A stretch of DNA of 64,000 nucleotides from an uncultured Erysipelotrichaceae bacterium (GCA_902766005.1 CACXCB010000101.1:1-64000), one strand, 5' to 3'. Counted from the stretch's first letter, positions 37,818 through 41,380 are shown. The notes: generated by a model not told the origin, from the letters alone. Numbers and translations: made by a program.

Positions 37818-37897
37818 GCGGATATGGCGGAACTGGCAGACGCGCCAGATTTAGGATCTGGTTCCTAGGAGTGCAGGTTCGATTCCTGTTATCCGCA
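37818..37897 (+). tRNA. tRNA-Leu (anticodon TAG)
   Basis: Acceptor GCGGATA pairs with TATCCGC, D arm GCGG...CGC, anticodon stem CCAGA/TCTGG with loop TTTAGGA (anticodon TAG), a short class II variable arm TTCCTAGGAGT, and T arm GCAGG-TTCGATT-CCTGT. The CCA end is not encoded. The 3' 48 bases, from the anticodon loop on, are repeated exactly at 41303-41350. Confidence 0.93.
37850..37897. repeat. Left attachment repeat (attL), within tRNA-Leu
   Basis: 48 bp, identical to 41303-41350; identity stops exactly at the base after the discriminator on one side and in the anticodon loop on the other. Confidence 0.8.
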
Positions 37898-37909
37898 CTG
37901 TTTATGTAC

Positions 37910-37957
37910 AAAAATGAGATCCGGACTTCTGAGTTAGGAGACTGGGATCTCATTTTT
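37910..37957. terminator. Bidirectional terminator at the left end of the cassette
   Basis: Perfect 13-bp inverted repeat AAAAATGAGATCC / GGATCTCATTTTT with an inner CTTCT/AGGAG pairing. It can end both tRNA-Leu and the oppositely oriented ABC operon. Confidence 0.8.
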
Positions 37958-37986
37958 ATGTGTCACGTATTCAAAATTGAATTCAC

Positions 37987-38658
37987 TTATTCTTTTCCGC
38001 CGATGATTCTTCCGTCTTCCATGACAATCATCCTGTCAGCACGATGTGCAAGCGTCTGATCATGTGTGCCAAACAATACAGTTGTCTTTGTTTTTCTGGC
38101 AGCGTCTTCAAACATGCGGAATACCGTTTCCGCATTTTTGCTGTCCAGGTTTCCGGTGGCTTCATCTGCCAGCACAATGCTGGGTTTCAGTATAAAAGCA
38201 CGGGCTATTGCGGCTCTTTGCTGCTGACCGCCGGAGCACTGCAAAGGATATTTATCCAGTATTCCTTCGATATCCAGAAGCCTGATCAGCCCCTCAAAAT
38301 ATGTCTGATCACATTCCGAATCTGCCAGGCGGCATGGAATCAGGATGTTATCGCGGATTGTATATTCATGAATGAGTTTGTAATCCTGCCATATAAAACC
38401 GATATTCCTGAGCCGGAAAGCACTTCTTTCTTCATCGTCTGAATTGATTTCCCGGCCGTTCAGTCTGATGATGCCGCTGTCCTGCATCTCCTGCAGACCA
38501 AGCAGTCTCAGCAAAGTGCTTTTGCCGCTTCCGCTCTTGCCTGTCAAAGCATTAACTGTACCTTCTTCAATGGAAAGTGTTATGTGATTCACTGCGTGTA
38601 CAGGTTCATTTTTTACTCCATAAGTTTTGCAGAGATCAGTCACTTCTATCATTTTCAT
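37987..38658 (-). CDS. ABC transporter ATP-binding protein (MacB/LolD type)
   Basis: A 223-residue ATPase with Walker A GKSGSGKST (about 39-47), Q-loop WQDYKL, signature CSGGQQQRAAIARA (about 140-153), Walker B IVLADEATGNLDS and switch His in FGTHDQTLAHRADR. The sequence type is that of ATPases working with FtsX-fold permeases (MacB, LolD, BceA group). It starts just after the permease stop, so both are made from one mRNA and form one transporter. No two-component system, as in Bce modules, is adjacent. Part of the tRNA-Leu cassette. Confidence 0.92.
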   Translation of the reverse strand: MKMIEVTDLCKTYGVKNEPVHAVNHITLSIEEGTVNALTGKSGSGKSTLLRLLGLQEMQDSGIIRLNGREINSDDEERSAFRLRNIGFIWQDYKLIHEYTIRDNILIPCRLADSECDQTYFEGLIRLLDIEGILDKYPLQCSGGQQQRAAIARAFILKPSIVLADEATGNLDSKNAETVFRMFEDAARKTKTTVLFGTHDQTLAHRADRMIVMEDGRIIGGKE

Positions 38659-38660
38659 GA

Positions 38661-40985
38661 TCAGCCCTCCAGATTTTCATACGGCTCCTTGCTGAGCCAT
38701 GCAGCATAAGCCGTTCTCTTCAGAATCATTACCGCACAGGCAACGCATACAGCAGTACCTGTAATCGGCAGCCATGCGTAATTCCATCGCACATTTACAA
38801 TCACATCACACTTCAGCATCTCAAATATTTTCAGTTTCGCTGGCCCATGATTCATATAACTGACAATGCCGCAATGCACTGCGATTGAAACAAGTGCACA
38901 GACTGCGATCACTCCTGCATCTCTTTTCAGATATGCATTCCGGAGCTTTGATGATGAAATACCCAATCCTCTTAATATACCGATTCTGTTTTTTTCAGTT
39001 TCGTTTTTCAGATTTTCCACATGAATCAGCAGGAGAATAGTTACTGCCGCTGTCAATGCACCGGCCAGAAGGATCAGCTGAGCATTGAATACCGACTGTT
39101 CATAAATCTGACTTACCAAAGCATAAGTATCACCTGAAAGTCTGCCGCCGCTTTCAACCGCAGCCGCGGAAATGGACCGTCTCACTGATTCAGGAGTATC
39201 GTCTTCCAGTCTGAGGTTTACTCTTGTCACCTCACCGCTATATTGAGGATTCTGTTTCCGGTAATAGTTTTCTGACACGATCAGCGTACCCGGCATGAGC
39301 AAGGTATTGTTTGTCAGCAGGGATTCCGGCTGAATCCGGCGGATCGTTTCCAGAATCATTGTCGGATGATCATCAATCTGCACTTCATGTCCGGCTTCAA
39401 GCGAAGTGATTTCTGAAATTGTATAGGAATAGTCATACATTCCGTTTTCCTGTTTCACATAACCGGGCAGATAAAACAGGATGCCGTCTCCGTTTACAAA
39501 TGCATTCTGCAATTCTTTATTCAGACCGTATGTTTTCCAGAGAGTCTCAGTTTCCCATTCGGGGATGACAGCCGCCTGCATGCCAACAACACCCTTCTCA
39601 TAGCGCATCAGGAATCCCGGCTGTTCCATTACGGCATTCAGTACCGGATCGTTCATTGTCTCTTCGGATGAAACACGATGAAATGACGGATCCAGATAAT
39701 ATGCAGCTGTTTCTGTCACATATGGAATCTCTTTCAGTTTTATCATGATTCCGCAGGACATTCCCTGATCTGCCTGTATATTCATCGCTGTATAAGGCCT
39801 GTTGATGTTGTATTTCAGCATCTGCCAGTCAGCTGCAGTGATTGAAGCGGATGCACTTAAGAACAGCAGTCCGATCAGAACAGCTTCTCTGATTTCCAAA
39901 GCAGAGGCGATTGTGAACCGTCTGCTCTTACGTACCGTCTTAGCAGTCTCACCTTTAATACTGGATGACTTCAGCTGCACATACAGGATCATATGCAGCA
40001 GAATCAGAACAGCAATGACAATCCCGTATACACCTGCCTTTATATGCAGATGCGCAGCGCAGCTGTATATGAATGTAACTATGAGCAATGCAAAGACCAT
40101 CGGAATATCCGCACATATCAAAATCAGTACATTCAGCATACCCCGGATTTTCACACGCGGTGCTCCCAGAAGGATGAGCGTTTTGACGGCACTGCGGATG
40201 CTTTTGCCATACAGATGATTCAGGAAAAAGATCAGAAGTATACAGACAATTGTAAATATTGCTCTGATTCCATACAGACCATAATCGGAGTCATATTGCT
40301 CAGGCCACGCATATTCATTAACAACCAGCATTTCTGATTCCCGGCCTCTGAACTGCATGAGCTGCTTCTCTGACATTCCGTATAAAAATGTCTGTATGTG
40401 GTCATCAGTAAATCTTCCGCATGTATCACTGCATATCACATCGATCAGCAGATTCCCTCCGGAAAACCAGTAACTGTCATAAGAAGGGAGAATTCCGGTG
40501 ATAACAAATGAATCTGTGTGAATCTCCTGACTGTCTTCTGCTTCTTTCCACTTCAGATCCACGCTTTGATCCACATCATATGTTTTTCCCAATGTATCCA
40601 GCATGGACAATGTCACGGCTATTTCATTATCTTTTTCAGGCAGTCTTCCTTCGATCAGAGAAATATTGTTTGACGCAAGAAAATCTGACGGCATTGTTCC
40701 AACTGCACCGATCACCTGCTCTTCGCCATTGACAGCAAGTGCTTTCCGGTGAAGCTGCCAGGATAATCCATAATCTGTCTTCCCCTCAAAATCAGCCACC
40801 TGCCAGTTTCCATACAGCTCCTTCAGCTTTTCAGAAGAGGCATTCTGCATCTGTATGATCTGAAAAGTCAGACAACAGAAAAAAGCCGTCAGAATAAACA
40901 CACCTGCCGAAAACAGAATGGACGGCTTACGATTCCCCTTCATCAATCTGAAAGAGAGTTTTAATATATTATTTCTTTTATTCAT
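38661..40985 (-). CDS. ABC transporter permease with two FtsX-type modules
   Basis: A 774-residue membrane protein with eight likely helices in two four-helix groups. Helix 1 (about 21-42) is followed by a large outside domain (45-230), then three helices (about 238-345); helix 5 (about 372) is followed by a second outside domain and three final helices containing the FtsX-like segment EKNRIGILRGLGISSSKLRNAYLKRD. This is a double MacB/LolC-like layout, suggesting mechanotransmission or export of a peptide or lipid rather than import. The ATG at 40985 has GAGGCG upstream; the 36 codons before it are leader. TATAAT on the minus strand near 41082 is the likely -10 box. Confidence 0.82.
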   Translation of the reverse strand: MNKRNNILKLSFRLMKGNRKPSILFSAGVFILTAFFCCLTFQIIQMQNASSEKLKELYGNWQVADFEGKTDYGLSWQLHRKALAVNGEEQVIGAVGTMPSDFLASNNISLIEGRLPEKDNEIAVTLSMLDTLGKTYDVDQSVDLKWKEAEDSQEIHTDSFVITGILPSYDSYWFSGGNLLIDVICSDTCGRFTDDHIQTFLYGMSEKQLMQFRGRESEMLVVNEYAWPEQYDSDYGLYGIRAIFTIVCILLIFFLNHLYGKSIRSAVKTLILLGAPRVKIRGMLNVLILICADIPMVFALLIVTFIYSCAAHLHIKAGVYGIVIAVLILLHMILYVQLKSSSIKGETAKTVRKSRRFTIASALEIREAVLIGLLFLSASASITAADWQMLKYNINRPYTAMNIQADQGMSCGIMIKLKEIPYVTETAAYYLDPSFHRVSSEETMNDPVLNAVMEQPGFLMRYEKGVVGMQAAVIPEWETETLWKTYGLNKELQNAFVNGDGILFYLPGYVKQENGMYDYSYTISEITSLEAGHEVQIDDHPTMILETIRRIQPESLLTNNTLLMPGTLIVSENYYRKQNPQYSGEVTRVNLRLEDDTPESVRRSISAAAVESGGRLSGDTYALVSQIYEQSVFNAQLILLAGALTAAVTILLLIHVENLKNETEKNRIGILRGLGISSSKLRNAYLKRDAGVIAVCALVSIAVHCGIVSYMNHGPAKLKIFEMLKCDVIVNVRWNYAWLPITGTAVCVACAVMILKRTAYAAWLSKEPYENLEG

Positions 40986-41172
40986 TGACTTGCGCCTCGT
41001 TTCCAGGAGCAAAACGTTATAACCTTGAAAAAAAAGCTGTTGAAGGATATTTGATTCGTTTCTGTTCTCAACTATATTATACTCCGTTAACATATTCTCT
41101 TATTATTATGTAAATGCAATTTAAAGGAATATTAAAATTTCTGAATGTAATAATTCATCAATGCAGTTATGC

Positions 41173-41178
41173 TATAAT
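41173..41178 (+). promoter_or_regulatory. Orphan extended -10 promoter in the cassette right end
   Basis: TGCTATAAT on the plus strand with no open reading frame of use before the terminator at 41357-41380. A transcript from about 41185 would be near 195 nt and end with the tRNA-Leu 3' half. Confidence 0.4.
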
Positions 41179-41292
41179 CTTACGTGTCGAAGCCAAAAAG
41201 ATCTTACGCGGTGTCAGCCGATGACATTACGAAAGATCAATCGTTACAGGCATTCATGATTCAAAAGATTATTTCAGGCACCGATCTTACGC
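41177..41292 (+). repeat. Three ATCTTACG direct repeats (possible recombinase arm sites)
   Basis: ATCTTACG occurs at 41177-41184, 41201-41208 and 41284-41291; the latter two extend to GATCTTACGC. They lie within 130 bases of the right attachment repeat. Confidence 0.5.
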
Positions 41293-41302
41293 ACTCCGGA
41301 GT

Positions 41303-41350
41303 TTTAGGATCTGGTTCCTAGGAGTGCAGGTTCGATTCCTGTTATCCGCA
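41303..41350. repeat. Right attachment repeat (attR), tRNA-Leu 3' half
   Basis: Exact copy of the last 48 bases of tRNA-Leu without a 5' half; not a functional tRNA gene. Confidence 0.8.
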
Positions 41351-41356
41351 TCGCTA

Positions 41357-41380
41357 AGCCTGGTAAAACAGGTTTTTTTT
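41357..41380 (+). terminator. Terminator after the right attachment repeat
   Basis: AGCCTG-GTAAAA-CAGGTT then T6. Its position directly behind the tRNA 3' copy suggests it was the tRNA-Leu terminator before insertion. Confidence 0.65.

Follow-up and report, generated by a model that had tools for sequence, protein, structure and literature searches.

Integrase-less cassettes with a shared 133-bp end at a tRNA-Leu gene of gut Erysipelotrichaceae, a putative family mobilised in trans

Introduction

Tandem islands without an integrase at tRNA genes are already known, in the form of CIMEs, of the Dehalococcoides ssrA islands and of additive flexible islands. CIMEs retain attL and attR without integration or transfer genes and accrete in tandem with ICEs or IMEs at a tRNA gene (PMC5704250). 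The Dehalococcoides ssrA islands, found in another phylum, are arranged in tandem at a single tDNA, and 15 of the 31 have no integration module; they display a conserved short motif beside a 20-bp repeat and rely on serine recombinases (DsiB/DsiA) (PMC3146451). For additive flexible islands, the available text of the sources presents a conserved tRNA gene as the cassette target, with tRNA-end repeats marking the cassettes (Alteromonas, PMC4119200 and PMC5217437; Methylophilaceae, PMC10872708). Islander-type tDNA islands split their target, restore the gene and leave the displaced 3′ fragment at the far end, with a subsite in the anticodon loop (PMC4383910). Integrase-less arrays also exist among integrons, namely CALINs, which include toxin-antitoxin cassettes and can be mobilised in trans by an integrase encoded elsewhere (PMC11389934).

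The locus presented here lies in a 64,000-nucleotide stretch of DNA from an uncultured Erysipelotrichaceae bacterium (CACXCB010000101.1:1-64000), hereafter the window. It comprises a 3,453-bp unit that is very probably an integrase-less integrative cassette, moved in trans by a tyrosine recombinase through tRNA-Leu and the core adjoining a conserved right-end module (RE). Judging from sequence comparison, RE cassettes appear to be a family that stacks at one tRNA-Leu gene, moves between gut Erysipelotrichaceae species and is slightly integron-like. No earlier description of this family was found in the open-licence literature. The window genome is a MAG (97% complete, 6.5% contamination), as are nearly all comparison genomes, with one genome per species.

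The tRNA-Leu site and its repeated 3′ half

The host tRNA is a tRNA-Leu(UAG) with anticodon TAG. The gene and the features derived from it are the following.

37818–37898, + strand: tRNA-Leu(UAG), regenerated from the host 5′ half and the cassette 3′ half (ARAGORN, Rfam)
37850–37897, + strand: left copy of the 48-bp repeat (exact), the cassette-borne tRNA 3′ half, a 'type A' left end
37850–37856, + strand: left crossover core TTTAGGA, which corresponds to the anticodon loop of the tRNA and lies between the stem arms CCAGA and TCTGG (placed by the empty and occupied junctions of G035/G005 and G061/G088)
41303–41350, + strand: right copy of the repeat (exact), the displaced original host tRNA-Leu 3′ half (from comparison with relatives)
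41303–41309, + strand: right crossover core TTTAGGA
41357–41380, + strand: original host terminator of tRNA-Leu, CCTG..CAGG followed by T8, unlike the cassette terminator (from the sequence)

The original prediction had started from a repetition, 3.45 kb downstream, of the last 48 bases of tRNA-Leu, and this repetition is exact: 37850–37897 is identical to 41303–41350 at a spacing of 3453, and the match extends to 51 bp with one mismatch. On the left, identity starts exactly where the 7-nt anticodon loop does, and the stem CCAGA/TCTGG provides inverted core arms around TTTAGGA. The probability that such a 48-mer recurs by chance in the 75-kb contig is negligible, and no third copy was found in the whole genome (4.05 Mb). 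Thus, the window displays the hallmark of a tRNA-targeted element, which is a regenerated tRNA gene with a displaced 3′ fragment in direct orientation. The terminator 3′ of the displaced half (AGCCTGGTAAAACAGGTTTTTTTT) reads as the end that the host tRNA gene originally had and, in relatives, the far-end half is that of the empty or sister site (G005 matching G035, and G068 matching G090).

The cargo of the window cassette

Between the repeats are found an ABC ATPase, its permease, a terminator hairpin and a non-coding right end, and no recombinase; the earlier description of a cassette carrying one ABC exporter without a recombinase is therefore upheld. The two genes are as follows.

37987–38658, − strand: ABC ATPase (cargo), 223 aa, LolD/MacB/BceA-like (PF00005, 3.7e-29; NCBIfam and PDB relatives)
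38661–40985, − strand: partner permease (cargo), about 774 aa, with eight predicted transmembrane segments in a (1+3)+(1+3) pattern (hydropathy)

The ATPase possesses the Walker A and B motifs and the signature; its nearest models are LolD/FtsE/MacB-like, and its nearest solved relatives are BceA, PsdA and LolD. The permease has no sequence match in Pfam, NCBIfam or the PDB and no close relative in the genus, in GTDB contigs or in viral contigs. Weak relatives (19–31% identical) occur in G034, G025 and G044, and the protein is absent from 59 relatives apart from matches at 25–31%. A LolD/MacB/BceA-type exporter pairs an ATPase of this class with a large FtsX-fold permease; here the ATPase is clear, and the permease has its eight segments in the 1+3+1+3 pattern, no family match and an AlphaFold model at a pLDDT of only 36. 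Based on the family of the ATPase, the cargo is probably a two-gene ABC exporter of the efflux or peptide/lipid type. An ABC pair near the tRNA-Leu gene of G034 was considered as the same cassette and rejected, as it has neither RE nor repeat and is 19–25% identical; it is a coincidence or a separate insertion.

The right-end module

The non-coding right end contains a module that recurs in relatives, recovered with positions 41090–41302 as query against 70 genomes of the genus.

41170–41302, + strand: RE, 133 bp, non-coding, 70–94% identical in 13 of 70 genus genomes

Copies in about 13 of these genomes are mostly 83–94% identical over 128–144 bp, with one diverged to 70% and others truncated. 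The module opens with an extended −10-like element (TGCTATAAT), and the aligned copies start abruptly at TGnTATAATCTTACG and end at GGAGTTTTAGGATC. What follows is a tRNA-Leu 3′ half, except at two junctions, where 17 bp lead into a whole tRNA-Leu ('type B'); all 18 aligned copies abut one or the other, and several can be present on one contig. Among 316 genomes of the order, RE is confined to this single genus (13 genomes; 0 of the 246 genomes outside it), and it was not found in viral contigs. NK3D112 is among the named GTDB records that contain it, which are 'Solobacterium sp.' or Erysipelotrichaceae records from the ruminant gut and elsewhere. The original prediction had missed RE as a family-wide conserved module, together with the arrays described below.

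The short direct repeats noticed earlier in the right end are real and correspond to RATCTTACG at 41176, 41200 and 41283; with the inverted AAAGATY at 41232 and 41264, they make five ATCTT-type boxes in the window RE. Nearly all RE copies have RATCTTACG at −125, −101 and −18 and AAAGATY at −69 and −37 from the core. When the most diverged copy is compared with that of the window, 39 of 41 box positions are identical, versus 48 of 92 elsewhere (Fisher p = 3e-7, a value that is indicative only, the boxes having been picked by eye). In appearance, these repeats are arm-type.

Two other readings of RE were rejected. A structured RNA or folded attC has neither covariation in its favor (31 predicted pairs with a covariation term of −0.39 kcal/mol, giving no support to a conserved fold in the alignment) nor a match in Rfam. 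An open reading frame of 45 codons from the GTG at 41184 does not stay open in other copies, where stops or deletions interrupt it.

Junctions, arrays and transfer between species

Integration at a specific site and a non-autonomous cassette, both originally proposed, are backed by an empty site and by identical ends around other cargo in related genomes. The tRNA-Leu gene is intact in G035, and in G005 the same flanks enclose two cassettes of about 9.2 kb in all. Identity between these flanks is 97.4% over the 1,239 bp that end at tRNA nt 39 and 90.0% over the 2,772 bp that begin at nt 30, and the junctions read GCCAGATTTAGGA followed by ATATAC... and ...GGAGTTTTAGGA followed by TCTGG.... In a second pair, G061 and G088 are 94.6% identical over an 11.4-kb stretch that takes in tRNA-Leu and a 9.2-kb cassette and runs to RE and TTTTAGGA; there, at the junction between RE and the 3′ half, G088 carries an extra 4.2-kb cassette. 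From these empty and occupied junctions, the crossover maps to TTTAGGA, which forms the 7-nt anticodon loop. The empty site is established at the level of the family (G035/G005); none was found for the window species, as the contig of its nearest relative, G086, ends just upstream. Synteny with htpG offered no route to empty sites, no tRNA-Leu being present beside htpG in 29 relatives.

Successive RE modules, several per contig, are separated by unrelated genes. Array cargo includes HigA/HigB (PF01381, PF05015), Fic (PF02661), AAA_14/DUF4143, a GH3 enzyme with an MFS_2 sugar transporter, GH1 with a PTS EIIC and, as read from the sequence, an acetyltransferase–MFS–AEC–aldo/keto reductase–AraC set. 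Cassettes range from about 1 to 10 kb, the smallest complete one being HigBA (about 0.9–1.1 kb).

The cassettes are shared at high identity between species: 97.5% for G030/G068 (9.1 kb), 97.6% for G061/G088 (9.3 kb), 95.0% over 5.1 kb for G005/G064 and 93–99% for the HigBA cassette. The upstream chromosome is 73% and 81% identical in the two pairs that can be compared. Cassettes at about 92–98% identity between species, against 73–81% for the flanking chromosome, indicate that cassettes move.

Left ends and the status of the window copy

37898–37957, + strand: cassette left end with terminator hairpin, arms 37910–37922 and 37945–37957 (from the sequence)

Left ends are of two types. Type A, as in the window, consists of the tRNA 3′ half only; type B consists of 17 bp and a complete tRNA-Leu, with the host 5′ half stranded upstream. 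Two stranded 5′ halves are in tandem in G064, which implies two insertions. A terminator at the left end is by itself not diagnostic, since empty sites such as that of G035 carry a similar one.

The window left end is 90% identical over 61 bp to that of an integrase-bearing element in G004. A competing view, less probable than a cassette moved in trans and still deserving weight, is that the window copy is a dead relic of a mobile family, a former integrative element of which little more than the ends and a single beneficial operon are left, now fixed. It is in keeping with an ancestral left end shortened to these 61 bp, with the absence of the left-arm RATCTTACG box, which other cassettes have some 151 bp rightward of the core (about +151), and with the lack of any relative of the candidate recombinase IntL, beyond Xer-like proteins, in this 97% complete genome, which makes the window copy an orphan. 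However, the two 48-bp halves have not diverged and RE is intact with its five boxes, which suggests recent insertion or continued use, and several other cassettes without the left-arm box (among them G088_2 and G005_2) are shared by different species at high identity. The preferred reading is that of a cassette that depends on a recombinase in trans, while its transfer route and the present mobility of the window copy are inferred.

IntL, the candidate recombinase

IntL is a tyrosine recombinase (PF00589) of about 328 aa encoded directly behind tRNA-Leu in four genomes. In G064 and G004, intL starts about 150 bp behind an intact type B tRNA-Leu, and the G004 contig stops within the gene; at this position, the copies of G030 and G071 are broken. 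At left ends in G005, G071 and a second position of G064, intL is truncated at codon 47–50 or so, and the G004 left end with the intL start is 88–97% identical to these over about 285–293 bp. Shorter pieces of the G004 left end are present in G068, G021, G090 and G014. Left ends of relatives therefore form a gradient, from integrase-bearing through integrase-truncated to integrase-less, and the remnants make it plausible that integrase-less cassettes descend from IntL elements. This gradient fits both alternatives raised in the original prediction, a cassette mobilised in trans and an element stripped to its cargo. The presence of a Mob_Pre relaxase in one G064 element suggests that IntL elements are or were conjugatively mobilizable. 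As regards CIMEs, which derive from a related ICE or IME and are mobilised in cis by accretion, the intL remnants point to integrase-bearing ancestors of the cassettes.

The best model for IntL is NF040815 (138.9, cut-off 220), and no arm-binding domain is obvious in Pfam, which speaks against IntL as the enzyme, given the arm-type look of the RE repeats. Relatives of IntL in plasmids, phages and viral contigs were below 30% identity where any were found. Two other candidates were set aside: a 376-aa integrase at a contig end of G064, unlinked to RE genomes or tRNA-Leu, and the integrases of G241 and G115 (31–33%), with no tRNA-Leu in the surrounding stretch examined.

IntL is missing from most RE-bearing genomes, that of the window included, so that it is a candidate for the enzyme. 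This absence favors a different driver, either a host XerC/XerD-like recombinase, present in every genome, or the integrase of a co-resident element; the RE genomes G017 and G018 show one and two PF00589 proteins, respectively, a near-universal class. Yet these two genomes are only 82% complete, the position of intL coincides exactly with the left end of family elements, other cassettes have its remnants at their left ends, and the core is the tRNA anticodon loop, a usual integrase target (2083 anticodon-centred sites for Islander, PMC4383910). A driver other than IntL is accordingly rather unlikely, and IntL remains the probable natural one.

That the arrays represent a genuine integron or CALIN with IntI and attC is highly improbable: small diverse cassettes including HigBA recall one, as does the integrase that some genomes encode next to the primary site, but IntL scores 54 bits against the integron integrase model TIGR02249 (cut-off 265), RE has no covarying hairpin and the crossover falls within a tRNA anticodon loop. 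An assembly artefact or simple tRNA-end duplication, conceivable for a MAG with some contamination, is refuted for the family and highly improbable for the window copy, since some ten assemblies made independently in separate projects, that of NK3D112 among them, have the same junction architecture.

Proposed mechanism and significance

Integration of an RE cassette can be pictured as follows. In the circular cassette, RE (133 bp), the core TTTAGGA (7 bp) and a tRNA-Leu 3′ half would together form the attachment site. Recombination between this core and the anticodon loop of the tRNA-Leu(UAG) gene would be carried out by a tyrosine recombinase acting in trans, probably of the IntL family, whose action on RE is inferred. 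The tRNA would be restored by the cassette 3′ half and the host 3′ half displaced to the far end where, still joined to RE, it could accept the next cassette. Type B members would instead deliver a complete tRNA-Leu and strand the host 5′ half upstream. Repeated insertion would yield arrays of unrelated cargo. Many cassettes look like IntL elements from which the integrase was deleted and replaced by cargo.

A broader and decidedly tentative proposal is that of a tRNA-based cassette-capture platform, a functional equivalent of the integron in which tRNA-Leu would be the primary site, RE with the 3′ half the universal site and IntL the integrase. It may be, with the same reserve, that most genomes then hold integrase-less arrays in which type B cassettes log insertions as stacked 5′ halves.

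The significance of the family is that a bacterium outside the classical integron hosts would gather, at a single essential tRNA gene, interchangeable operons with accessory roles in sugar use, toxin-antitoxin activity and export, by means of elements pared down to a 133-bp end and a tRNA half. The order of insertion may be read from the arrays through stacked 5′ halves and displaced 3′ halves. With ends this small, the family also suggests a compact means of delivering cargo to a specific site in gut Bacillota.

Comparison with known systems

Like a CIME, the window cassette keeps attL and attR without integration or transfer genes; RE cassettes differ by their small size (about 1–10 kb), a dedicated 133-bp end, interchangeable cargo, occurrence in several species and, for some, type B ends. 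With respect to the Dehalococcoides islands, they are distinguished by a tRNA-Leu target, a tyrosine recombinase family (PF00589), a crossover in the anticodon loop and the 133-bp RE. The shared attachment module and type B ends also set them apart from additive islands, for which the available text of the sources describes neither. RE arrays would work similarly to CALINs, by analogy, but have no attC and no IntI, and their target is a tRNA whose function is restored. Finally, Islander needs an integrase gene inside the island, unlike RE cassettes, which are therefore missed by design, and island finders with this demand overlook such cassettes.

Promoter-like sequence at the right end

The conserved 133-bp right-end module of the tRNA-Leu cassettes, which abuts the tRNA-Leu 3′ half, starts in the window with a near-perfect extended −10 sequence (TGnTATAAT; 41170-41178) oriented toward the tRNA half, and most copies of the module carry this motif at the same position. 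Transcription from it could yield a short RNA or, inside arrays of stacked cassettes, the complete tRNA-Leu brought by type B left ends.

Elsewhere in the window, a THF riboswitch (RF01831; 56468-56559, minus strand) scores 37.1 bits, slightly over the gathering score. The genome as a whole (4.05 Mb, 6.5% contamination, 17 tyrosine recombinase matches) exceeds most other members of its genus in size (these span 1.3-3.6 Mb, with a single genome at 5.2 Mb), and the bin may be a mixture of strains.

Other features near tRNA-Leu

Relative to the empty-site genome G035, G087 carries ~4 kb extra ~60 bp past tRNA-Leu (L082 3125-7163, reverse complement), an insertion with neither right-end module nor tRNA repeat. 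In G034, a genome without the module, a BceAB-like ABC pair lies 1.8 kb behind tRNA-Leu (L080 4840-9821, reverse complement), accompanied by two genes resembling a two-component system. Directly behind tRNA-Leu in G085 stands a truncated, antisense C-terminal integrase fragment (L072; G085:C1:301925-302131), probably part of another element located at this tRNA.

Array interiors

Some tRNA 3′ halves within arrays terminate in CAGGCGCAC, an acceptor strand that differs from the TATCCGC/TATCCTC normally seen in this tRNA; these halves look as though they were picked up from a different tRNA-Leu:

L117 10263-10312, minus strand (coordinates on reverse complement), 3′ half ending CAGGCGCAC
L116 1183-1231, minus strand (coordinates on reverse complement), 3′ half ending CAGGCGCAC

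Inside the G064 array, a relaxase adjoins a second integrase resembling IntL, the tyrosine recombinase directly behind tRNA-Leu in some relatives:

L122 6352-7671, Mob_Pre relaxase
L122 5382-6326, second IntL-like integrase

This pair is a candidate mobilizable parent element.
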